A stretch of 64,000 nucleotides of DNA from Synergistaceae bacterium (GTDB taxonomy: Bacteria; Synergistota; Synergistia; Synergistales; Aminobacteriaceae). The position numbers and the translations under genes were made by a program. The notes beneath the pieces were generated by a model. The model was not told the origin of the DNA, made no database searches, and was given only the letters and a program-made list of their open reading frames with translations. Below are positions 6,524-61,081 of the stretch, piece by piece (within the stretch, counting starts at the first letter, position 1; every line of letters starts with the position of its first letter). Location: the NCBI GenBank assembly GCA_031267575.1, contig JAIRYN010000047.1, positions 1-64,000 of the forward strand, in the 5' to 3' direction.

Positions 6524-8050
6524 TTATTGCCAGGACCATTCATAAAATTGAGGAAAGATAGAATAGTTTCTCGAAATGTTCAAATCGGTCGTCCAGACAA
6601 AAGGCGTCGGTCTATAGAAAACAGGCAGCATAGTGGCGGTGTCCATAATCATATCATTGAGTTCAGTGTAAATTTCCTTACGTTTGGTGACGTCCGCGAC
6701 AGAAACACCGTCGTCCCAAAGTTGATCCATTTTCTTATAGTCGAATTTGTCACCTTCGTACTTGACGTAGTAGGCACCAATTGCCCTGGTATCACAGTAC
6801 AGTCTCCAAGCATCGAAGTCGCCGACCACTTCACCACCGGTCGTCAGGAGGTTGAACTTCTGAGTACGAGCATACTCCAGATTTGTGGCGGATTCCAGGC
6901 GGTTGATGTCGCAGGTCAGGCCGATTTCGGCGAGATTCGCCTGCAAGACGACGGCCATCTTCTCGTAGTTGCCACCAGCGGAACAGTTAATCGAGCCGAT
7001 GTGGGTTCCGTTTGGATAGGCGGACTTGGCCAAGTACTCCTTGGCTCTCTCAAGATCGTAGTTGTAAACGATGCCTGTGATGGGAGCGCCGGTATTTTGA
7101 GCGCCAATCAGGAAATCGGCATTGACCGCGTTTCCGTTGAAGACAGCGATATTCATGGCGTCCTTGTCGATGGCATAAGCAATTGCCTTACGCAGGTTGT
7201 CGTCATCCAGAGGTTTGTTGAAGTAGTTTACGCAGATGAAGGAAATGTGATTGGCGGGCACAAGCTCGGTTTTGTATTTCGGATTAGAGACCAGCATGTC
7301 CCAGTTGGCGATGGGAGCAATGTACCAATCCAGCTCGCCGGATTCGAAAGCGATAAGCCCCGCGGAAGCGTCAGTGATAGGAACGAAACGCAGTTTTTTG
7401 ATAGGCGCCTCGCCCCGATAATAAGCGGGGAAAGCATCGCAAGTCCACTCGACGTCGTGTCTGAGGGAAGTAATGAAATAGGGACCAGTTCCGGCCAAAG
7501 TCAGTTTCGTGCCGAACTCCTCGCCCTGCTCTTCGACTTCGGCCTGATTCACGATAAAAATCATATTTTGGTTATTGAGGAACGCCGAGTTGGGCTGTTT
7601 CAGCTTGACGACCACGGTATAGTCATCGGTGGCGGTTACATCGTCAACGGTTGTCAGATAGTTTCTGACCTTGGGGTTTTCGGCGGCACGCTTGAGCGAA
7701 AATACTACGTCGCTGGCCTTGAGATCTCTACCGTTGTGGAATTTGACGTCTTTGCGGAGATTAAATGTATAGGCGAGACCATCGGAAGCGACACTATAGC
7801 TCTCCGCGACGCGGAGCTCGTACTCGCCGGTGGCTTCGTTTTGAAATACCAGGGGTTCAAAAACTTGCTTGAGGAAGATGATATCTTGGAGGTTGGTAGT
7901 ATTGTGCGGGTCGATCGTGGTAAGTGGAGCCAAGGTACTCAGGTTGAGAGTGCGGACATCAGCCCCCAAAGCCGGGATCGTTCCACTGCGCACCACAAAA
8001 ATCACAATTGCTCCCAACAAAAACGTCGCTCTTTTAAAAAATCTTTTCAT
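6524..8050 (-). CDS. ABC transporter substrate-binding protein, family 5 (peptide/nickel type)
   Basis: A 508-residue secreted protein. Residues 1-29 form a signal peptide (MKRFFKRATFLLGAIVIFVV... ending in ALGA). The mature part shows the SBP_bac_5 marks: FEPLVFQNEATGEYELRVAESYS, YTFNLRKDVKFHNGRDLKASDVVFSLKR split over residues 90-120, and LRKAIAYAIDKDAM. There is no lipobox Cys. It delivers solute to DppBCDF encoded just downstream. The ATG at 8050 sits behind the conserved leader element at 8057-8195 that supplies the AAAGGATC ribosome site. Dipeptides are the most likely solute class, but this family also binds nickel, haem and sugars. Confidence 0.92.
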   Translation of the reverse strand: MKRFFKRATFLLGAIVIFVVRSGTIPALGADVRTLNLSTLAPLTTIDPHNTTNLQDIIFLKQVFEPLVFQNEATGEYELRVAESYSVASDGLAYTFNLRKDVKFHNGRDLKASDVVFSLKRAAENPKVRNYLTTVDDVTATDDYTVVVKLKQPNSAFLNNQNMIFIVNQAEVEEQGEEFGTKLTLAGTGPYFITSLRHDVEWTCDAFPAYYRGEAPIKKLRFVPITDASAGLIAFESGELDWYIAPIANWDMLVSNPKYKTELVPANHISFICVNYFNKPLDDDNLRKAIAYAIDKDAMNIAVFNGNAVNADFLIGAQNTGAPITGIVYNYDLERAKEYLAKSAYPNGTHIGSINCSAGGNYEKMAVVLQANLAEIGLTCDINRLESATNLEYARTQKFNLLTTGGEVVGDFDAWRLYCDTRAIGAYYVKYEGDKFDYKKMDQLWDDGVSVADVTKRKEIYTELNDMIMDTATMLPVFYRPTPFVWTTDLNISRNYSIFPQFYEWSWQ

Positions 8051-8056
8051 AACTTT

Positions 8057-8195
8057 CCGATCCTTTCAGCGTACTAATACCTACTTATAACGAGCAGATA
8101 CATTTCGCATAGTATCTCTTCGACTATAAAGCCAAAGAAAAAGCTGAATCTCGCAAAGCTCATAAAAATATTCCGAAATATTCCACAAGCGCCGT
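8057..8195 (-). ncRNA. Conserved structured 5' leader element, copy 1
   Basis: This stretch directly precedes the binding-protein start and recurs at 17389-17518 and 21506-21567. On the sense (minus) strand it can form, 5' to 3', GCUUGU/AUGAGC, UUUCUUUG/CGAAGAGA, then CUGCU/AGUAG inside a UACUA/UAGUA closing pair. It ends in GCUGAAAGGAUCGG, which holds the ribosome site. Compared with copy 2, differences in these stems become G-U pairs on the sense strand and mismatches on the other strand, as expected of an RNA. An extra 10-bp tandem duplication sits in the first loop. Identity unknown. Confidence 0.6.
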
Positions 8196-8730
8196 CGTTC
8201 GGATACCCGGGTCAATAGCCACTGTACGGCCTTGGTTCTAGGCTATAACGTCAGTAACTATCGGAACGCGTATAAACCACCCATCAGACTCTAGAGTCAA
8301 TCGTAAATTCTGCCTTCATCGATTCACCTCCCTATTGTCGAAACGCACAACTCTGTTACCTACGTCACTTGATAATATAATTTTTACCATAACATATTAT
8401 AGCGCTTTGTAATAGTTTACCAGATATGAATATTAATGTATTACAGCTTATTAAGATACTATGTATAATCTTCCTCCTTTCCATTAGTTCTACTCCATTA
8501 GTTCTACAGCGATTCTTCATCGCACGGAGGTTTAAATTTTTTGAGAGTAAAATGAATATAAAGTTGCCTACAATGAGATCTTCAGATCAGGGAAAAGCTA
8601 CTTTAAGTTGTTAGTTATATCGCATTATAGCCAACTTTCAGCAATCGTCAAGCCAGTACCACCAGGTACCAGGGCAAACTGAGAGAAGCGGTTTTATTGG
8701 AGCAGGGTATGAATACATCAAGTCAAACGA
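8196..8730. other. Intergenic stretch with no supported gene
   Basis: AT-rich region between the divergent peptide-transport and galM units. On the minus strand GGGAGGTGA precedes an ATG at 8319 that opens an 11-codon ORF (stop at 8284). It may be what is left of a lost gene or a short leader ORF. A 14-bp tandem duplication (CCATTAGTTCTACT) lies at about 8483-8511. No conserved protein could be seen. Confidence 0.4.
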
Positions 8731-13505: not shown

Positions 13506-13653
13506 TGCCTTGCCCGTCGAATCAAACATCGCTGACAAACTGCTACTGAAAACCTACACAAATGTGTAATAGTCCAGATTTTTCCTTCTTCATCCTTCCC
13601 TCTTTCGCCAAAGCTACTCAAGTTTGTATGGAAGTCCAAAGGCTTAAATTCCC

Positions 13654-13674
13654 GTGTAGCCCACGGCTTTACAC
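13654..13674 (-). repeat. Right-end hairpin of the 14-kb TnpB element
   Basis: Just after the TnpB stop, GTGTA/TACAC with an inner GCC/GGC stem forms the imperfect hairpin usual at the right end of IS200/IS605-group elements. In such elements this region also encodes the 3' end of the guide (omega) RNA. Confidence 0.5.
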
Positions 13675-14492
13675 TACTTTATAGTGTTTACAATACTTTA
13701 GGTTCATAGCCGCGTTCAAATCGCGGTCTATTTTCAACCCGCATTCTTGGCAGATATAGACACGGTCACTGAGCTTCAAATCCTTGCTTCAAATCCTTGC
13801 TTAAAATCCTTCTTTAAACCCCACTTTATAGCCCCACAATTTGAGCACATCTTCGATGAGGGAAAAAAGATGAGGGAAAAAAGATGAAGGAAAAAAGATG
13901 AAGGAAAAAATCGGTCAGCGGCTCTAAGCTCTATGCTGTGCCTCTTACATTTCTCTGCCAGCTTGCTTTTAAAACAGTAAAAATCCTGTTCCGCTATAGC
14001 CTTTGAGAGATGCCTGTTTTTCATCATTCCAAGAATATTAAGGTCCTCGATTGTGATATAGGCTGGCTTGGTCATCACCAGTGCACAGATTATTTTGTTG
14101 ATATAGTCTTTTTTTACACAATCAAGTCTGTAGTAGGCTTTCTGGACTTTAATACGCTGTTTATATAGGTTCGTAAATTTTCCAGTAGCAGCTTTCACCT
14201 TCTTTCTATAATTAATTTTTCGAGAAAATTTACGTTGTTCTCGTTTAAGCCTGCGTTTTAATTTCTTAACTCTGGGTGCTTTGTTTATATTGCTAAAAAC
14301 CTGGTGGTTAGAAACCGTAGCTGTTTCTTTAATTCCTAAATCAACACCTATTCCATCAGAATCAGACTCTAGGGACATAGCCACTTTCACGCTCACGCCG
14401 CGGATACAGCGCTCAATATGGGAGATTGGGATCTTGTATATCGTCATATCGACAAAGGCGCGACGCTCTTTGAGAGTAGTCGCGGAAGTCAT
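13669..14492 (-). pseudogene. TnpB-like RNA-guided nuclease, truncated and frameshifted
   Basis: Matches the C-terminal two thirds of TnpB (IS200/IS605 group): RuvC-I GIGVDLGIKETATVS, the Lys/Arg-rich helices, RuvC-II YITIEDLNILGMM, then RFFPSS, CSNCG and, in another frame, VYICQECGLKIDRDLNAAMNL (second zinc knuckle and RuvC-III). The N-terminal domain is missing. A 14-bp unit present four times at 13855-13910 adds 14 residues in frame before the zinc finger; repeated copies of GATTTGAAGCAAG at about 13780-13815 break the frame between the two Cys pairs. No TnpA gene is present. Confidence 0.8.
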
Positions 14493-14647
14493 TGTAGTTC
14501 TATTCTTTATAGCTTGAAAGCCATATGCGACGCGAGACGCGGCAAATAAGAAGGAGTCTGATGCAAATTAATATAAATAAATTAACGAATAGATACTTAT
14601 CTTTATACTCTACGACGGCCTCTTGGTGTCTGAACTCCCCAATGGCG

Positions 14648-14839
14648 TCATAAAAAAGATCGGTAGCCAAAAACAATGGCGGCGGCGAAGAGAAAACCAA
14701 GAAATGTGCGCAAATAAAAGACCCAAAGAGGCCCCCCTGGAAGTTCGCCTCTTTGTATTCGCACCGTCAACCTGGCCACCAGAAGCGCCATTCCAAAAGA
14801 CGCCAAACCCATCAAGGCATAAACATTGCTCTCCGGCAT
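14648..14839 (-). CDS. Small membrane protein of unknown function
   Basis: A 63-residue ORF with two hydrophobic helices (YALMGLASFGMALLVARL and WVFYLRTFLGFLFAAAIVFG) joined by a basic loop. I do not recognise a family. ATG at 14839 has AGAAGGTGG 11 bases upstream; a TTG at 14878 would add 13 residues. It follows der by about 220 bp on the same strand. Confidence 0.5.
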   Translation of the reverse strand: MPESNVYALMGLASFGMALLVARLTVRIQRGELPGGPLWVFYLRTFLGFLFAAAIVFGYRSFL

Positions 14840-15059
14840 AACAGCTTGTTCCCACCTTCTAAGAGTTCCAATACTCAACCCTGTTTCCTATGCGACTTGG
14901 TACACCGTGTATAATACCGCCATAATAGCTATATTATAGCATATATATACCTTGTTAAGTATATAATTAGAAACTAATATTTAATTATCCACTATATGTA
15001 ACCCCCCAGGTTGTCCAGATAGAGGTACCGCCGTTCCAGAGGCGTCCACGAGTATAGTT

Positions 15060-16385: not shown

Positions 16386-17381
16386 TTACTCATTGAGCAT
16401 ATAGGACCGTAGATCCTGGTCCCGCAATTCCGCCCCCAGCCCCACCGCCAACCGGATGCGCGCCTGCAAGGGCATCAAATCCCCCGCGCTGATCAAACCC
16501 ATTTCCAGAAGGCGTTTCGCGCTGCCCTCGAAATCGAGCCCCGATATAACACGCCCCGCCATACAACGCGAGGCGAGAACGACAGGAACCTCGGCGCGCA
16601 TAACCTTGCGCAGAAGAGAGACCCACGAGGGTGGGACGTCGCCTCCCCCGAAGGACGAAACCACAAGCCCATCTACCTCAGAAACACGCCCATCCAAAAG
16701 AGCATTCAGCAAAACATCGCCCCCTCCTAGGGAGGCATCGAGAATTTCCACGTTGCGGGCGGGAGGAGTGGTGATATCCATGATCTTGCCTCGGCGGAGA
16801 GTGCGGATAGGCGTTAAAACGCCCTCGGGCTCGGAGAACTTCGCGACGGGACCGCCAGGTATGGCAACGTACCCGTTGCGGTTGTCGTTGGACAGGTGTA
16901 CGAGCTCCGCGGCCGGGTAAAGTTTATCCTGCAAGCAGACGAGAGCGCCCTGCCCCCAGCAGGTACGCGATTCCGCAGCGCGCACAGATTGAGAAAAAAA
17001 CAACGCCGTTTCGGAACCGAGGCTATTCGCGTAGTTAATGGACGCGGTGAAAACGAGGGGCTGAGGATAGCTCCAAACCAGGTTGGAGAAATACGCCATC
17101 TCCGTCAAGGCTTGTGTTCCGCAGGTGATGACAATGCCACTAGCCCCCGCCTCCACCTGAGCCCCCGCCACTTGAATCATGTCGCTGCACATGCGTAGAG
17201 TATAATGAGAAATAGGCTGGTAGCTCCAGTCCACTATGTAGATTTTTTCCCTCATCGCCTCCGGAAAAAGCGCGACGATCTCTTCTTCCTCCAGAACTCT
17301 CGTTTCCAGTTCGATGGGGACATGTTTCTGGATAATCTGTCCACCCGCCAAAATCAACGCGATCTTATCTCTGTTTGCCAC
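16386..17381 (-). CDS. Asparaginase-family protein with altered active site
   Basis: A 331-residue member of the asparaginase/glutaminase fold: ALILAGGQIIQ at the N-terminus, IVITCGTQALTEMAYF, YPQPLVFTASINYANS and GLVVSSFGGGDVPPSW in the C-terminal domain. Classical enzymes have GGT and HGTD with nucleophile Thr and an Asp; here GGQ and CGTQ stand in their place, and the conserved Lys after the second motif is not evident. It may hydrolyse another amide, or be non-catalytic. GTG start at 17381, behind leader copy 2. Confidence 0.8.
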   Translation of the reverse strand: MANRDKIALILAGGQIIQKHVPIELETRVLEEEEIVALFPEAMREKIYIVDWSYQPISHYTLRMCSDMIQVAGAQVEAGASGIVITCGTQALTEMAYFSNLVWSYPQPLVFTASINYANSLGSETALFFSQSVRAAESRTCWGQGALVCLQDKLYPAAELVHLSNDNRNGYVAIPGGPVAKFSEPEGVLTPIRTLRRGKIMDITTPPARNVEILDASLGGGDVLLNALLDGRVSEVDGLVVSSFGGGDVPPSWVSLLRKVMRAEVPVVLASRCMAGRVISGLDFEGSAKRLLEMGLISAGDLMPLQARIRLAVGLGAELRDQDLRSYMLNE

Positions 17382-17388
17382 ACTTCTA

Positions 17389-17518
17389 CCGATCCTTTCA
17401 ACGTACTAATACCTACTTATAACAAGTAGATACATTTCGCATAGTATTTCTTTGACTATAAAGCCAAAGAAAAAGCTAAATCTCACAAAGCTCGTAGAAA
17501 GATACCACGAGCACCGTT
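17389..17518 (-). ncRNA. Conserved structured 5' leader element, copy 2
   Basis: Copy with perfect Watson-Crick helices on the minus strand: GCTCGT/ACGAGC (17507-17512 with 17490-17495), TTTCTTTG/CAAAGAAA (17465-17472 with 17447-17454, as RNA CUUUG paired loop GGCUUUAUAGU) and CTACTT/AAGTAG (17424-17429 with 17413-17418). The tail GUUGAAAGGAUCGG holds the ribosome site for the asparaginase-like gene. See 8057-8195 and 21506-21567. Confidence 0.6.
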
Positions 17519-17742
17519 GTAGTTTCGATCTACAACAATACTTCCCTCTTTGATATCCCTAGTCGATATCCCTCTTTGATCAACTTAGCGCTTCCAATCT
17601 TTTTGATTACTCCATTCCACGAACAGGCTTTAGAGGTAGAAGCCTCATTGACATTTCTCATTGATATTCCTCATTGACATTGATAACTACTTTTCCATAT
17701 TCCGAGATCTCCAGCCCAGGAGTTGATCGACTATACCCGGGC
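17519..17742. other. Intergenic spacer with duplicated short words
   Basis: Contains near-tandem repeats such as GATATCCCT (17560-17580) and CTCATTGA(C/T)AT (17645-17680). No gene is seen. Confidence 0.4.
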
Positions 17743-18468: not shown

Positions 18469-20757
18469 TTACTGCCGCTCCAGAGCGTGAAGATGAACGC
18501 GCTCTAAAGCCGTGCGCAACGTTTTCCTATCGATGCCCATTTTCGCCCCCGCCATAGAAAGATTCACGTAAAGACTTCGATCCACCGGGTTAAAGTAAAC
18601 GGCCTCGGCGAGAAGCCTAGCCTCAGAGGGAACATTCAATATCGTCTGAAAGTCCTTCCACAGAGGCCCCACATCGCCAGCCAAAGAACCGGAGGGCAAA
18701 GGATTATTCTTATTATCACCGTTCCCCTCAAAACTCAAACAAGCCAGAAACATCTCGAACGCTTGGCTATAGTTTCCCTCCCGATAGTGATCGACTCCTT
18801 CGTTGAAGAGGCCTTCTCGTGTGACGGATTCCACGGCAGAGACGGAAAAAACTGGGGAAACCGCTGAGGCCACTTTATTGGCAACAGGTTTTGCTTGGAA
18901 ACGCGTGTTTCTTCTGAAGCTGCGCGGCGACGTATTTCTCTTGGGAGGCTGGCGTCTTCTGTTTTGCACCTCCAACTCAGCCAGCTTGGTCTTGGCCTCG
19001 TCGTGGTCCGGTTGATATGTCAACGCTCTTTGCAGGGACTTAATTGCCCCGGCTCTATCGCCCAGTTCGTTGCGAGCGTCGGCGAAACCTATCCAAGCAT
19101 TCACGTCGTTGCTGTAAACCGACAACGCCTCTGAGAAATACCGAGAAGCGTCTTCGTATTTTTTCAACTCCAAAGCCGCCGTGCCCTCTCTCATGGCTTG
19201 CTCGAACTTTTGCGTCACGGCTCGAACCTTTTGCTCCTCTTCCCGCGCGGCTAAGATGAGAGAAATCCGCCTGATGGCCTTCCGGGCAACGTCAGAGGAG
19301 GGGCTCAGATCAAGCATCCGGCTATAGGCCTCAGAGGCCGCCTGGAGGTCGTCCTGCTCCTCCAAGACGATGGCCAGCGCGAAATAAACGCTATAGCTGG
19401 TCGGATCGATCGCCGCAGCCTCCTTGAAGCTGGATTGGGCTTTGTCCCATGCCTTCAGACTGGAGTAAAGACGCCCGATTTCGTAAAATACCCCGGAACG
19501 AGCCGGCGCCTCGCTCTCAGAGAAGAACTTCAAGCTGGCCTGGTAGGCCGCCACCGCATCCTCCACTCGTCCGATATGTTCGGCGGCGCGAGCCGTGCCC
19601 AACAAAGGCTCGATCCTCCCAGCGTAGCGCCCCACCACCCGCTGATACATTTCAAAGGCGGCTTCGTATTGCTCCTGACCATAAAACGTCAGGGCTTCCC
19701 CCATGAGAAAATCGTAGGAGTTGCGCTTCCAATGATGGTACACCGTAAAGAGCGTCCCAATAATCAGGATCGAGAAAGCGCACAACACCAAAAAACGTCC
19801 GCGGTTCCCTCGGAAGCCGCTACGCCTATACAAAGGGGAAACGCGTCTCATCGGCTCGGTGTCCTGCATCTGTTGAGCGAGATGAAGCGCTTCTCTCTCC
19901 GCAGATCTCCACATGGCGTATTTCTCACTGTCGTTACCGTGATTTTCGTCGTGAATTTTATCATGCGTTTCATCGCGATCACCGTTTTTTTCGCTTTTTT
20001 CAGTTTCCCCGCTTTTTTCGTGGGTTTCGTGGGTTTCGTGGGATGGAAGCGTAGAATCGTCAGAGACTGGAAAAATCTTGTCGAGGGAATCGCCAAAAAC
20101 ACCAGAACCCACATCGGCAAGGTCGGAAATATCGGAACCATCGGAAAGAGAAATTATCTCCGGAGTGGCGAGGGGTTCAGGCTCCTCGGAAGATGTTGAT
20201 GTTTGTGTTTCCATGCCTGGTTCATCATCGAATTTTCTTTGATAAGCCGCCACGGAGATGTCTTCCTCCATCGAACTTTTCTTTATCAGGCTTTCTTCAA
20301 TCAGGCTTTCTTCAATCGGGCTTTCTTCAATCAGGCTTTCTTTAATTGAATTTTCTTCAATTGAATTTTCTTCAATTAAGTTTTCTTCAATTAAGTTTTC
20401 CTGTATTGAATTTTTTTTGATATCTTTTTTGATATCTTCTTCGATATTTTCTTCGATATTTTCTTTAATGTCTTCTTCAATATTTATATTTCCTTTAATA
20501 TTTCCTTTATCTTCTTTGATATCTTCTTCAATCGAGTTTCCCTTAGGTGTGGTTTTTCCAAGCACAACCTCCTTCACCGGGCTTACTTTAACCTCGGCGA
20601 CGGAAAAAATCTCGCTAGAAGGAGGAGGCACAACCAGAAGCGGAACAACAGGGTAGTCCTCCTCACGAGTTTTATCAAGCATGGCAGCATAATCCATCAC
20701 AAATAAGGATGCTTGCCACGCTCCGCCTCTGAGCCAGTCCTCCAGATTCTTCCTCAC
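18469..20757 (-). CDS. Membrane-anchored TPR protein with repeat-expanded acidic region
   Basis: About 762 residues. Residues ~70-165 form a low-complexity acidic stretch made of pentapeptides such as IEESL and IEENS, coded by 15-bp tandem units (about 20280-20420). A second acidic/His region follows. One membrane helix (FLVLCAFSILIIGTLFTVY, ~residue 330) leads to at least six TPR units (for example AAFEMYQRVVGRYAGRIEPLLG, split as needed) and a C-terminal TPR-like tail. It is likely a scaffold with the TPRs on one side of the membrane. GTG at 20757 with GAGG nine bases upstream is preferred over TTG 20763. Confidence 0.75.
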   Translation of the reverse strand: MRKNLEDWLRGGAWQASLFVMDYAAMLDKTREEDYPVVPLLVVPPPSSEIFSVAEVKVSPVKEVVLGKTTPKGNSIEEDIKEDKGNIKGNINIEEDIKENIEENIEEDIKKDIKKNSIQENLIEENLIEENSIEENSIKESLIEESPIEESLIEESLIKKSSMEEDISVAAYQRKFDDEPGMETQTSTSSEEPEPLATPEIISLSDGSDISDLADVGSGVFGDSLDKIFPVSDDSTLPSHETHETHEKSGETEKSEKNGDRDETHDKIHDENHGNDSEKYAMWRSAEREALHLAQQMQDTEPMRRVSPLYRRSGFRGNRGRFLVLCAFSILIIGTLFTVYHHWKRNSYDFLMGEALTFYGQEQYEAAFEMYQRVVGRYAGRIEPLLGTARAAEHIGRVEDAVAAYQASLKFFSESEAPARSGVFYEIGRLYSSLKAWDKAQSSFKEAAAIDPTSYSVYFALAIVLEEQDDLQAASEAYSRMLDLSPSSDVARKAIRRISLILAAREEEQKVRAVTQKFEQAMREGTAALELKKYEDASRYFSEALSVYSNDVNAWIGFADARNELGDRAGAIKSLQRALTYQPDHDEAKTKLAELEVQNRRRQPPKRNTSPRSFRRNTRFQAKPVANKVASAVSPVFSVSAVESVTREGLFNEGVDHYREGNYSQAFEMFLACLSFEGNGDNKNNPLPSGSLAGDVGPLWKDFQTILNVPSEARLLAEAVYFNPVDRSLYVNLSMAGAKMGIDRKTLRTALERVHLHALERQ

Positions 20758-20883: not shown

Positions 20884-21495
20884 TTAGCGATTTTTGACCA
20901 AGGTCTGAATGAGTGTCACCGCGCCGTCAATGCCGGTGGAACTGGTGTTAATCGCGAGATCGTAAGACCGCACATTCCCCCAAACCTCGTCCGTGTAATG
21001 TTGGTAATAATTGGCGCGTCCCTTGTCCATCTTGGTCATTTTCGACTCGGCCTCCTCCCGCGGGATACCGTATTCTTCCACGATGCGCCGCAGTTTGTCT
21101 TTCACCGACCCGTAGATGAACACTTTCACGCACTTGGGGTGGTTCCGGAGGATATAGTTAGCGCACCGCCCAATGATGACGCAGCTCCCTTGGCTCGCCA
21201 ATTCCTCAATAGCCTTCGACTGCGCAAAATAAACTTGATCGCTGATGGGAATGTTGACCTGGGAGAAAATTCCCGACGAGACGTAGCCCCCTATGGCTAG
21301 ATAGAACAAAAATCGACTGGTGGCCTCTTCCTCCGCTTTTTCGATCGTGATGGGATCGAGCCCGCTTTTAGCCACAGCTAGGTGAATCAAAGATTTGTCG
21401 TAAAACCCAATCCCCAGTTCTTCGGCTAGTTTTTCGCCGACCTGCCTGCCGCCGCTGCCGAATTCTCTGCCGATAGTGATCACCAAGTCGTCCAT
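20884..21495 (-). CDS. Cytidylate kinase-like family protein
   Basis: A 203-residue P-loop protein of the Cytidylate_kin2 family: VITIGREFGSGGRQVGEKLAEEL contains the GREFGSGG P-loop, FYDKSLI follows, and GSCVIIGRCANYIL and the lid-like RRIVEEYGIPREEAE are typical. These are NMP-kinase-fold proteins of unproven substrate, often near transporters or stress genes. Its ATG follows leader copy 3. focA lies just upstream on the same strand. Confidence 0.85.
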   Translation of the reverse strand: MDDLVITIGREFGSGGRQVGEKLAEELGIGFYDKSLIHLAVAKSGLDPITIEKAEEEATSRFLFYLAIGGYVSSGIFSQVNIPISDQVYFAQSKAIEELASQGSCVIIGRCANYILRNHPKCVKVFIYGSVKDKLRRIVEEYGIPREEAESKMTKMDKGRANYYQHYTDEVWGNVRSYDLAINTSSTGIDGAVTLIQTLVKNR

Positions 21496-21505
21496 GGTCG
21501 TTTCT

Positions 21506-21567
21506 CCGATCCTTTCAGCGTACTAATACCTACTTATAACAAGTAGATACGTTTCGCGTAGCATTTC
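21506..21567 (-). ncRNA. Conserved structured 5' leader element, copy 3 (3' half only)
   Basis: Only the 3' half of the element is present, since the formate/nitrite channel gene ends at 21569. CTACTT/AAGTAG is kept, and the outer pair reads UGCUA/UAGUA, a G-U change relative to UACUA in the other copies that still pairs on the sense strand. The tail CGCUGAAAGGAUCGG precedes the cytidylate kinase-like start. Confidence 0.55.
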
Positions 21568-21568
21568 A

Positions 21569-22405
21569 TTAAGTCAGCGTCCCCGCCTTTGCCAGATAAC
21601 ACTTCCACAACAACGCGCCTAGTCCAACGCCGCCCAAGACGTTGCCCACCGTTACCGGCAGCAGATTACTCATGAAGAATTTCCCCCAAGTCAACGCCGC
21701 CACATCGACACCCGCCCCCGACACCTTCGCCGCGTAAACGGGAACGTCCATCGCAAAAAGCCCCGCGGGGATATAGTACATGTTTGCCACGCTGTGCTCG
21801 AAGCCGCAGATGACGAAAAAGACTACGGGAATATATGCTCCCAGGACGCGGCCTGCGCTGTCTCTGGCGGACAAGCTGCACAAGACACCCAGACACACCA
21901 ACACATTGCACAAGACACCCAGCAGCATGGCGGGAATGAACCCCACAGCGCACTTAGCCGCCGCTACTTTGATGGTGTAGACGGACAGACCGCCGTCGGA
22001 GTAGTTCATCTGTCCAGAATAAGCGCAGCTAGCGGCCAACAAGACAGCCCCCACAAAGTTGCCCAAGTACACTATCACCCAGTTTCTCAACATCCCTTTT
22101 ATGGTGCTCCTGCCTTCCAATAAGGAAATAGGAATCATACAGTTGCCCGTGAACAGCTCTGCGCCTATCAGCATCACGACGCCCAGTCCGAAGGGAAAGA
22201 GCAGACCGCTGATTACCCGGGCGACAGATACGTTCACGATGGCGTGAGCGGCCGTGTTGGTCACCGCTGCGCCCATTCCAATCAGAAAGCCCGCGAGAAT
22301 ACCCAACAGGAATAGTTTTCCCGTGGGACTCGCCGCTTTTTTTGCGCCGATCTCTGCGTAATCCGTGATGATTTCGACAGGCGTCAACAACTGCGGCGCG
22401 TTCAC
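21569..22405 (-). CDS. Formate/nitrite transporter family channel
   Basis: About 278 residues with six helices of the FNT fold (FocA/NirC): residues ~40-60 GILAGFLIGMGAAVTNTAA, AELFTGNCMIPISLLEGR and NWVIVYLGNFVGAVLLAA, and the later GFEHSVANMYYIPAGLF, the family signature with the pore His. It passes formate or a similar small anion across the inner membrane. GTG at 22405 overlaps the folD stop by 4 bp (GTGA) and has GGAGGGCG upstream, so it is preferred to the ATG at 22426. Coupling with folD suggests one-carbon/formate metabolism. Confidence 0.92.
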   Translation of the reverse strand: MNAPQLLTPVEIITDYAEIGAKKAASPTGKLFLLGILAGFLIGMGAAVTNTAAHAIVNVSVARVISGLLFPFGLGVVMLIGAELFTGNCMIPISLLEGRSTIKGMLRNWVIVYLGNFVGAVLLAASCAYSGQMNYSDGGLSVYTIKVAAAKCAVGFIPAMLLGVLCNVLVCLGVLCSLSARDSAGRVLGAYIPVVFFVICGFEHSVANMYYIPAGLFAMDVPVYAAKVSGAGVDVAALTWGKFFMSNLLPVTVGNVLGGVGLGALLWKCYLAKAGTLT

Positions 22406-23253
22406 GCTCCGCGCCCTCCAATGCACTTGGCCGCCTGCGTCACATGTTCGGCCAATAGGGTGGTGGTGACGCTCCCAACACCGCCCGGAACTGGGGTGAC
22501 GGCGTCAACAATTTTTTCCGCGTCGGTAAAGTTGACGTCTCCGCACAAAACGCCGTTCTCGTCCTCGTTGATCCCCACATCAATCACCATTTGCCCTGGG
22601 GAAAAGTAATCTTGATCGATCATTCTGGCCTTGCCGATAGCTACAACCAACACGTCGGCCTCCCGGCATAAGGCGGACATGTTTTTGGTTCCCGAATGGC
22701 ACACTGTGACCGTGGCGTTTTTGCCCAAGAGCATCATAGCCACCGGCCTGCCCACAACCAAACTGCGCCCCACGACCACCACCCTTTTGCCCTTCAGGTC
22801 AACGCCGTAGTGATCGAGAATTTTCACGCAAGCCTGGGGAGTGCAGGGAGGAAAACCGACGTTGATGCTCCCCGTAAACACGGCAGCGATGGATGCGTCG
22901 GTGATGCCGTCCACGTCTTTAGCCGGCAGAAGCCTGTTGCGAATCACCTCGTCATCGATATGCTTTGGCAGCGGGCGGAGCAACAATACACCGTGAATAG
23001 AGGCGTCCTCGTTGAGGCTGTCCACGACGTGCAACACCTCCTCCTGCGTGACGGTCGTGGGCAGGACGAGGCTTTTCACCTCCACCCCCAAGGATGAACA
23101 GCGCTTTGTCGCCCCGCGCTGGTAAGCGATGTCGCCCTCCCGTTCACCCACACGAACGATAGCCAACCCTGGCAAGATATTTCTTGCCCTCAATAATCTC
23201 ACTTCTTCCTTGATCGCCGCATTTAGCTTCGCGACCACTTCGGCACCCTTCAA
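22402..23253 (-). CDS. folD: Bifunctional methylenetetrahydrofolate dehydrogenase/cyclohydrolase
   Basis: A 283-residue FolD: ILPGLAIVRVGEREGDIAYQRGATKRC (N-terminal active-site block; the usual YxxxK Tyr and Lys are YQRGATK), PLPKHIDDE, CTPQACVKILDHYGVDL, GKRVVVVGRSLVVGRPVAMML and PGGVGSVTTTLLAEH. It interconverts methylene-, methenyl- and formyl-THF. Its stop overlaps the start of the formate/nitrite channel gene. Confidence 0.95.
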   Translation of the reverse strand: MKGAEVVAKLNAAIKEEVRLLRARNILPGLAIVRVGEREGDIAYQRGATKRCSSLGVEVKSLVLPTTVTQEEVLHVVDSLNEDASIHGVLLLRPLPKHIDDEVIRNRLLPAKDVDGITDASIAAVFTGSINVGFPPCTPQACVKILDHYGVDLKGKRVVVVGRSLVVGRPVAMMLLGKNATVTVCHSGTKNMSALCREADVLVVAIGKARMIDQDYFSPGQMVIDVGINEDENGVLCGDVNFTDAEKIVDAVTPVPGGVGSVTTTLLAEHVTQAAKCIGGRGA

Positions 23254-60239: not shown

Positions 60240-61081
60240 CTTACGTCTTCTCCTTTAAGAGTGGATGTCCCCACTCTGAGAATATTTACAGCCGCCTTGA
60301 TATCCCGATTGATATCCCGGTCGTGTTCCGCTCCGCATCTCGGACACGTCCATCCGTCCATCCACAGATGGACAGAGATGGACAGCGGCAACTCAGGAAG
60401 AACATAAAAACAGGATGAACAGATTTTTGACGAAGGATAGAACCTGTAGATTTTTGTTCTATGCGATTTTTATTCCATGATTGCCGTTCTTGTACATCTC
60501 CCACGAAAGAATACCGAGAAATTGAGCGTGTCCCAAATCAGATATTTTACGACCCCACATGCGTTGCATAGCTTTCATATTCAAGTCCTTGACTTCAAGT
60601 CCTCGACTTCAAGTCCTCGACTTCAAGTCCTTGACTTCAAGTCCTCGACTCCAAGTCCTTGACTTCAAGTCCTTGACTTCAAGTCCTTGACTTCAAGTCC
60701 TCGACTTTAAGTCCTCGACTTCAAGTCCTTGACTTCAAGTCCTTGACTTTAAGTCCTTGACTTTAAGTCCTTGACGAAGGAAGATGGAAGCATGCCGCCG
60801 TACGAGCTCAAGCGCCAGTTTGTAGTGATAGTCTCTACGTTGATTTGCGATTGTCCTGTGCGTTCTGGCTAGAGCAAACCTTGCTTTCTTATGATTCTTG
60901 CTTCCTCGTCTCTTACGGCTGAGTTCTCGCGAAAATTTCTTGAGCTTGCCTGAAGCCCGGCGCATAGATGCATAGAAAGAGGCGACTCAATCTTTTCTCC
61001 CTCCGACGTGGTGAGGAATATTTTCAAATCGAAATCGAGACCCAAAATCGAGGCCGACACTTTTACCTGATCTTGCCTCAT
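60240..61081 (-). pseudogene. tnpB: tnpB fragments, frameshifted
   Basis: Pieces in different frames follow TnpB order: RuvC-I ILGLDFDLKIFLTTSEGE (Gly in place of a variable residue; catalytic Asp present), the basic helices GKLKKFSRELSRKRRGSK, RTIANQRRDYHYKLALELV, then the 14-bp array at the RuvC-II site, MQRMWGRKISDLGHAQF, PSSKICSSC and WTCPRCGAEHDRDIN. The start domain is lost. Confidence 0.8.
60581..60776. repeat. 14 x 14-bp tandem array inside the tnpB remnant
   Basis: TTCAAGTCCTTGAC units repeat 14 times without spacers, with C/T changes at two positions. The array falls where TnpB has its RuvC-II Glu-Asp-Leu motif and has destroyed the frame. Confidence 0.95.

Follow-up and report, generated by a model that had tools for sequence, protein, structure and literature searches.

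IS607 and ISXfa1, in the parts of their descriptions available to us (PMC6188088, PMC10711439), possess a serine recombinase TnpA with a MerR-type helix-turn-helix (HTH), a TnpB, GG/GG junctions arising by exchange at GG without target duplication, and a right-end RNA that reaches the right boundary, where the host-side nucleotide is fixed. The TAMs reported for IS607 TnpBs in the available part of PMC11061315, AGGAG and GAGGG, adjoin the left end, and the RAGATH-18 reRNAs (ISFba1) described there are right-end RNAs that follow an IS607 tnpB and go with an AG-rich TAM. The rare pro-Fanzor TnpBs, mostly cyanobacterial, are marked in the available part of PMC10711439 by the combination of DPG with an alternative Glu. 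The Synergistaceae family described here is similar to IS607 and ISXfa1 in its recombinase, TnpB, junctions and right-end RNA, and to the RAGATH-18 reRNAs in the place of this RNA and in its AG-rich target. Nevertheless, it differs from IS607 and ISXfa1, as far as the same parts of those papers go, in its many miniature copies, in a right end resembling a Shine-Dalgarno (SD) sequence, and in the concentration of its insertions in SDs ahead of start codons, of which they give no such account.

The locus lies in a window of 64,000 nucleotides, the whole stretch of DNA analysed here, from a Synergistaceae genome of 2.76 Mb. An earlier note on this window had described three copies of an element located just before start codons. 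Its coordinates for these copies, all on the minus strand, are correct, and Pfam agrees with the downstream genes that it named (a peptide-binding protein, an asparaginase and a cytidylate kinase-like protein), whereas copies 1 and 2 reach farther upstream than it had drawn them (to 8472 and to at least 17649, respectively) and the copies in the genome number more than 60 instead of three. The 16-mer AGTAGGTATTAGTACG occurs 3 times in the window, compared to 0.08 expected (with up to 3 mismatches). The features are the following.

8059-8472, minus strand: copy 1, an internally deleted (miniature) IS607-type element of 414 bp from left end to right end, delimited by both junctions
8353-8472, minus strand: left end of copy 1 (blastn of the left-end consensus, 86%, aligned over 8353-8468)
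8196-8374, minus strand: scraps of tnpA and tnpB within copy 1 (tblastn), equivalent to aa 8-31 of TnpA (a weak match, E 0.013) and aa 140-177 of TnpB (E 1e-5)
8059-8180, minus strand: right end of copy 1 with the predicted right-end (omega) RNA scaffold (right-end blast over 8059-8174, 96%)
8473-8482, minus strand: host GGAAAGGAGG left of copy 1, read from the junction as the split-off SD half and a TAM-like motif
8057-8058, minus strand: GG of the host next to the right end of copy 1, 6 nt ahead of ATG 8050
6524-8050, minus strand: peptide-binding protein gene (SBP_bac_5) after copy 1 (Pfam PF00496, E 1.7e-72)
17391-17649, minus strand: copy 2, 5'-truncated, with a C-terminal tnpB remnant at 17468-17649 (67-71% to TnpB, tblastn E 3e-15) and the right end at 17391-17512 (95%)
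16386-17381, minus strand: asparaginase gene after copy 2 (Pfam PF00710, PF17763)
21508-21570, minus strand: copy 3, a 5'-truncated right-end fragment (92% to right-end positions 62-124)
20884-21495, minus strand: cytidylate kinase-like gene after copy 3 (Pfam PF13189, Cytidylate_kin2, E 4e-55)

The three copies end in GAAAGGATC (at 8059, 17391 and 21508), beyond which come the host GG (at 8057-8058, 17389-17390 and 21506-21507) and the start codon of the downstream gene (ATG 8050, GTG 17381 and ATG 21495). At its other end, copy 1 shows the left junction ...GGAAAGGAGG/AAGATTATACATAG at 8473/8472, with a left end of a type common to many copies. When copy 1 is removed and GGAAAGGAGG is rejoined to AAAGTTATG, the result is GGAAAGGAGGAAAGTTATG, with a strong SD ahead of the start codon. 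Copy 3 is a 3' fragment only, of about 63 nt, and adjoins the upstream gene (21569-22426) at its stop codon.

A 139-nt query found 41 places in the genome, and the 27-nt end found 60 (28 forward, 32 reverse) when 3 mismatches at most were allowed, against 0 for a reversed control pattern. The own-genome set used below comprises 62 distinct copies whose sequences were retrieved and inspected; in some, the last 27-60 nt are all that remains. The genes that follow the copies number in the dozens and are unrelated, with no common theme. No match to the exact 27-nt end was found in a scan of named genomes, and a covariance model built from the own-genome copies detected relatives in 8 of the 83 genomes of the family, belonging to 5 of 20 genera, which is a sporadic distribution. 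A sub-family of right ends in which AAAGAATC replaces AAAGGATC (L050, L052, L060, L061 and L062, in G000 contigs C2, C41, C45, C74 and C75) lies mostly away from genes, and several of its members have a common upstream sequence ...ACCTTGAAAACTGAATATAAGAGGTTGTTCGGAGAAGTTCCGAACG. We also observe, in two genera, a right end ahead of apparently the same gene (L046 in G000:C27 and L071 in G028:C168); the likeness consists of a similar N-terminal coding sequence, and reflects either an ancestral common insertion or independent insertions into the same SD.

In related genera, a protein end (...IVVDRDYNGARGILLRALRDSAL) occurs directly upstream of the hairpins. Its frame is that of TnpB (Pfam PF07282, 1.6e-16; PF01385 for the upstream part, 2.8e-8), whose C-terminus runs into the element without a break, the element overlapping the 3' end of tnpB. 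The own genome shows, on contig C27, an open serine recombinase gene tnpA, a decayed tnpB, the element and a gene, in this order, and this TnpA combines PF00239 (3.4e-14) with an N-terminal MerR/HTH_17 domain of the IS607 type. A full element is present in G004:C108, arranged as ...GGTGGGAGG, left end, tnpA (same protein type as on C27), long open tnpB, right end, GGTAGGTCATG. Both genes accompany the same scaffold in G076:C45, and G087:C1 encodes an open, intact-looking TnpB. In the own genome no demonstrably intact TnpB was found; the tnpB copies there are fragmentary or damaged, and the longest spans two contigs (63-nt overlap) and has a damaged N-terminus. The repeats are right ends of an IS607-family transposon, with tnpA ahead of the less decayed ones: a serine TnpA with a MerR-type HTH, a TnpB after TnpA, and exchange at GG without target duplication are all observed. 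An IS607 transposon with TnpB and a right-end RNA is of an already known kind.

The TnpB carries DPG at RuvC-I and an alternative Glu placed six residues ahead of the zinc-finger Cys (ExxxxxxC), more specifically SVDPGVRTF and DEAYTSKTC in G087, as do the pro-Fanzor TnpBs and Fanzor2 L79. Its best solved relative is the mimivirus Fanzor2 L79 (PDB 9b0l, 1.1e-20), well ahead of Cas12f- and TnpB-type chains. It differs from these proteins in its Synergistaceae host and in the zinc finger, where the first CxxC lacks its second Cys (CSWN) and the second CxxC is absent (TnpBs of G087, G004 and G000), and the candidate pro-Fanzor assignment is limited to the RuvC signature. The same or a closely related TnpB is found in named records of Synergistaceae/Synergistales genomes, including goat rumen MAGs, with further relatives in a record labelled Bacteroides sp. 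(63%) and in the cyanobacterial Moorena (39% identity). Downstream of the related tnpB of Moorena bouillonii (L223, 2450-2850), short repeats occur that are present at dozens of places in the genome, and when the right end of the Moorena element was itself searched for in Moorena, only dispersed repeats came up.

Left ends begin directly past GG, with flanks such as TTTTGGAGG/, TTAGGAGG/, TATTGAGG/, GGAAGG/ and GTGAAGG/ in other copies. Over 18 flanks and empty sites, the five bases leading up to the junction have the consensus G-(G/A)-(A/G)-G-G, or RGRGG, which resembles the published TAMs of IS607 TnpBs (AGGAG, GAGGG); judged from the left flanks, RGRGG may be the TAM of this family. Among eight occupied/empty comparisons, six are clean, L195 and L199 being left out for having no junction GG or being too diverged, and in these six a sister genome lacks the element and homology restarts exactly at GG. 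The occupied GAAAGGATC/GGTAAGCAAGCTATG corresponds to an empty ATAGGA/GGTAAGCAAGCTATG at 98% identity, and other empty sites read GGTGGGATCGTAATG after TTTAAA, GGTTTTTGTGAAGATG after TAAGGG, GGCTGTTGTATG after GAGAGGGG and GGTTATTACAGTATG after AAAAGGG, with TTTGGA/GGTAGATATACTATG in a more diverged genome. Both junctions are visible when G004:C43 is compared to G022 (which form one genus with G032), the left flank TTTAGAGG preceding the left end and the empty site reading TTTAAAGG. Such natural occupied/empty pairs are usable for testing target choice.

The scaffold of copy 1 comprises three helices, P1 (UUCAGC/GCUGAA), P2 and P3. Folded singly, the sequences have only a moderate advantage over shuffles (z -1.7 and -3.5), so that the case for an RNA structure depends on comparison. 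In 38 own-genome copies, 95.1% of the cells of a 31-pair structure are paired, compared to 38-46% when the structure is slid. A MAFFT alignment across genera misregistered P3, and a covariance-model alignment was used in its place; this alignment of 39 distinct rows, drawn from several genera, leans toward structure by construction. It has 93.2% of cells paired, and two-sided changes affect 15 pairs (at most 6 after sliding) and 117 cells (at most 24 after sliding). Hairpin sequences differ widely between genera yet stay complementary. The structured RNA under sense-strand selection that the earlier note had proposed is thus borne out, with strong covariation and a three-helix fold in the own genome and in other genera; a covariance model, here built from own-genome copies, does find relatives whose pairs covary, and the G-U pattern that it had noticed extends to the 38 genome copies, in which one-sided departures are G-U in 67 cases and A-C in 27. 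It had also recognized no known class, and no Rfam family matches the scaffold: lax thresholds gave chance matches only, and RAGATH-18 (RF03064) has no match in window positions 8040-8260 at E up to 10, which separates this scaffold from the RAGATH-18 reRNAs, whereas a separate relic in the same window does match. The structured RNA overlaps the 3' end of tnpB and ends at the right end, the usual place of TnpB right-end (omega) RNA scaffolds; by its position and fold, it is probably a TnpB guide-RNA (omega) scaffold, bound by TnpB.

To score location, a copy was counted as preceding a gene if a start codon lay 3-20 nt past GGATC, opening an ORF of at least 80 codons with an in-frame stop no more than 150 nt upstream. 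This is the case for 47 of the 62 own-genome copies (76%), the other 15 having no qualifying start codon nearby, compared to 5.3% for GG and 8.4% for AGGAG/GAGGG among the control sites of the window. Even the GGAGG/AGGAGG sites of the window precede starts in only 7-15% of cases by the same test (14.7% for AGGAGG). TAM-like motifs alone therefore explain too little, and a preference of TnpA or selection acting on insertions must contribute as well.

On our reading, the transposon recombines at GG, and the dinucleotide used by this family is usually one inside an SD. Insertion splits the SD and leaves its upstream half behind at the left end (empty AGGA/GGTAAGCAAGCTATG), while the conserved GAAAGGATC of the right end and the host GG, at a normal distance from the start, would form a replacement ribosome-binding site. 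GAAAGGATC, which we take to be complementary to the usual anti-SD, probably recruits ribosomes, as its sequence suggests; the own-genome assembly yielded no 16S 3' end. The RNA bound by TnpB would use the 5' end of the host gene as guide. Since the right end AGGATCGG is not AGGAGG, it would not itself act as a TAM, which would protect an occupied site and leave an empty one open to cutting. Insertions would persist by being nearly neutral, and removal of an element once in place would cost the ribosome-binding site. The element would be found in front of unrelated genes because a mobile end inserts in ribosome-binding sites and supplies a substitute. IStrons are TnpB-carrying transposons that splice out of RNA, limiting the damage of their own insertion. 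In the Synergistaceae family, an insertion would become harmless by rebuilding of the ribosome-binding site, with no splicing; such a right end would allow insertion without silencing of the gene and be an alternative to splicing.

With the transposon identity, both junctions, the empty sites, the location bias and the RNA covariation in hand, we regard it as highly probable that the element is, as a whole, an IS607 right end with an omega RNA scaffold and an SD swap at insertion. A bolder reading, which we offer tentatively and with more doubt than belief, is that this right end is at once the end of a guide-RNA scaffold and a TAM-less ribosome-binding site, by which a pro-Fanzor-like IS607 homes to SDs and stays translationally silent, that dozens of host genes depend on it, and that any TnpB still present could exploit or influence the 5' leaders.

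The location before start codons might instead arise from insertion at any GG, if the copies near starts remain since their deletion removes the only SD of the gene. This idea competes with the preferred explanation only over the choice of target and may hold in part, as IS607 itself prefers only (G)GG in the available part of PMC6188088, the more diverged own-genome copies are at starts more often (76%) than those of other genera (59%), and AAAGGA is damaged in 6 of the 15 copies without a nearby start versus 3 of the 47 others (p 0.004). Nevertheless, the copies in other genera, many of them near-identical, are already at starts in 13 of 22 cases, and the flanks show RGRGG, which is more than GG, so that survival as the sole cause is unlikely. 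Target preference and survivorship seem to act together.

The earlier note had taken the element for a regulatory leader of three operons. It was right about a structured RNA before start codons that supplies an SD-like sequence, and a cis-acting riboswitch-like or protein-binding leader common to several operons would be consistent with the conserved, covarying sense-strand fold, with the position of the copies and with the SD region being less changed than the helices on terminal branches (0.75 versus 1.48 changes per site). A leader of this kind does not agree with the overlap with tnpB, the IS607 tnpA, the left end, the GG/GG junctions, the presence or absence at orthologous sites, the lack of a theme among dozens of downstream genes, or the reduction of some copies to their last 27-60 nt. 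As a tree-less count of private changes is biased against G-U, we counted changes by parsimony on a tree of the own copies, where the ratio of pair-keeping to pair-breaking changes is 21:6 on internal branches and 48:41 on terminal branches. Pairing was kept on internal but largely not on terminal branches, indicating that the helices were selected while the element moved, and selection on them in the resident leader is at most weak. The structure is neither clearly kept in the resident leader nor tied to orthologous genes, and we consider a shared cis leader extremely improbable. The mobile repeat that the earlier note had named as the finding that would speak against its leader is in substance what we observe, although most copies do stand at gene starts, with a single orientation relative to the gene. 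Domestication of the right ends, in which a resident TnpB or another factor binds the mRNA scaffolds and regulates the downstream genes, in the way that TldR repressors act through guide RNAs, would make use of the dozens of full scaffolds that stand directly before genes with host-gene sequence at the guide position, and an extensive tnpB copy does survive in the genome. The little terminal-branch selection on the helices and the fragmentary or damaged state of the tnpB copies nevertheless make such a role very unlikely.

For the preferred reading, an IS607 right end that swaps the SD at insertion, what appears to be new is the scaffold class, the pro-Fanzor-like Synergistaceae lineage with its dozens of miniature copies, and the swap itself. 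A literature search linking TnpB or IS607 with Shine-Dalgarno found nothing, which is weak evidence of novelty given its limited coverage, and the words "ribosome" and "start codon" are absent from the main text of PMC11061315. SDs, as found before many genes, could account for AGGAG-like target motifs in an RNA-guided transposon family. The predicted guide-RNA scaffold class is missing from Rfam, and the near-intact copies represent a pro-Fanzor-like system outside cyanobacteria.

The window also contains a second, different IS607 relic, directly ahead of another gene.

13530-15001, minus strand: second IS607 relic, with its left end at 15001 after host GGGGGG, the start of tnpA at 14852-14923, a tnpB remnant with PF07282 at 13699-13773, and a right-end RNA that is RAGATH-18 at 13582-13642 (Rfam RF03064, 63.7 bits)

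Two more copies of RAGATH-18 occur in G000, on contigs C36 and C28. Across the 64-kb window we count 37 exact adjacent duplications of 10-18 nt (for instance at 8480, 8838, 8983, 13773-13883, 20285-20486 and 60591-60745), compared to 0 in block-shuffled sequence, and similar ones are found inside many element copies and at broken left junctions; the genome appears to have a mutational habit of this kind. The truncated left junction of L047 (G000:C49) carries an exact duplicate of the upstream gene's stop region, GTCGTGAAAAGAGAATGA, hinting at template-switching repair during trimming of the element.
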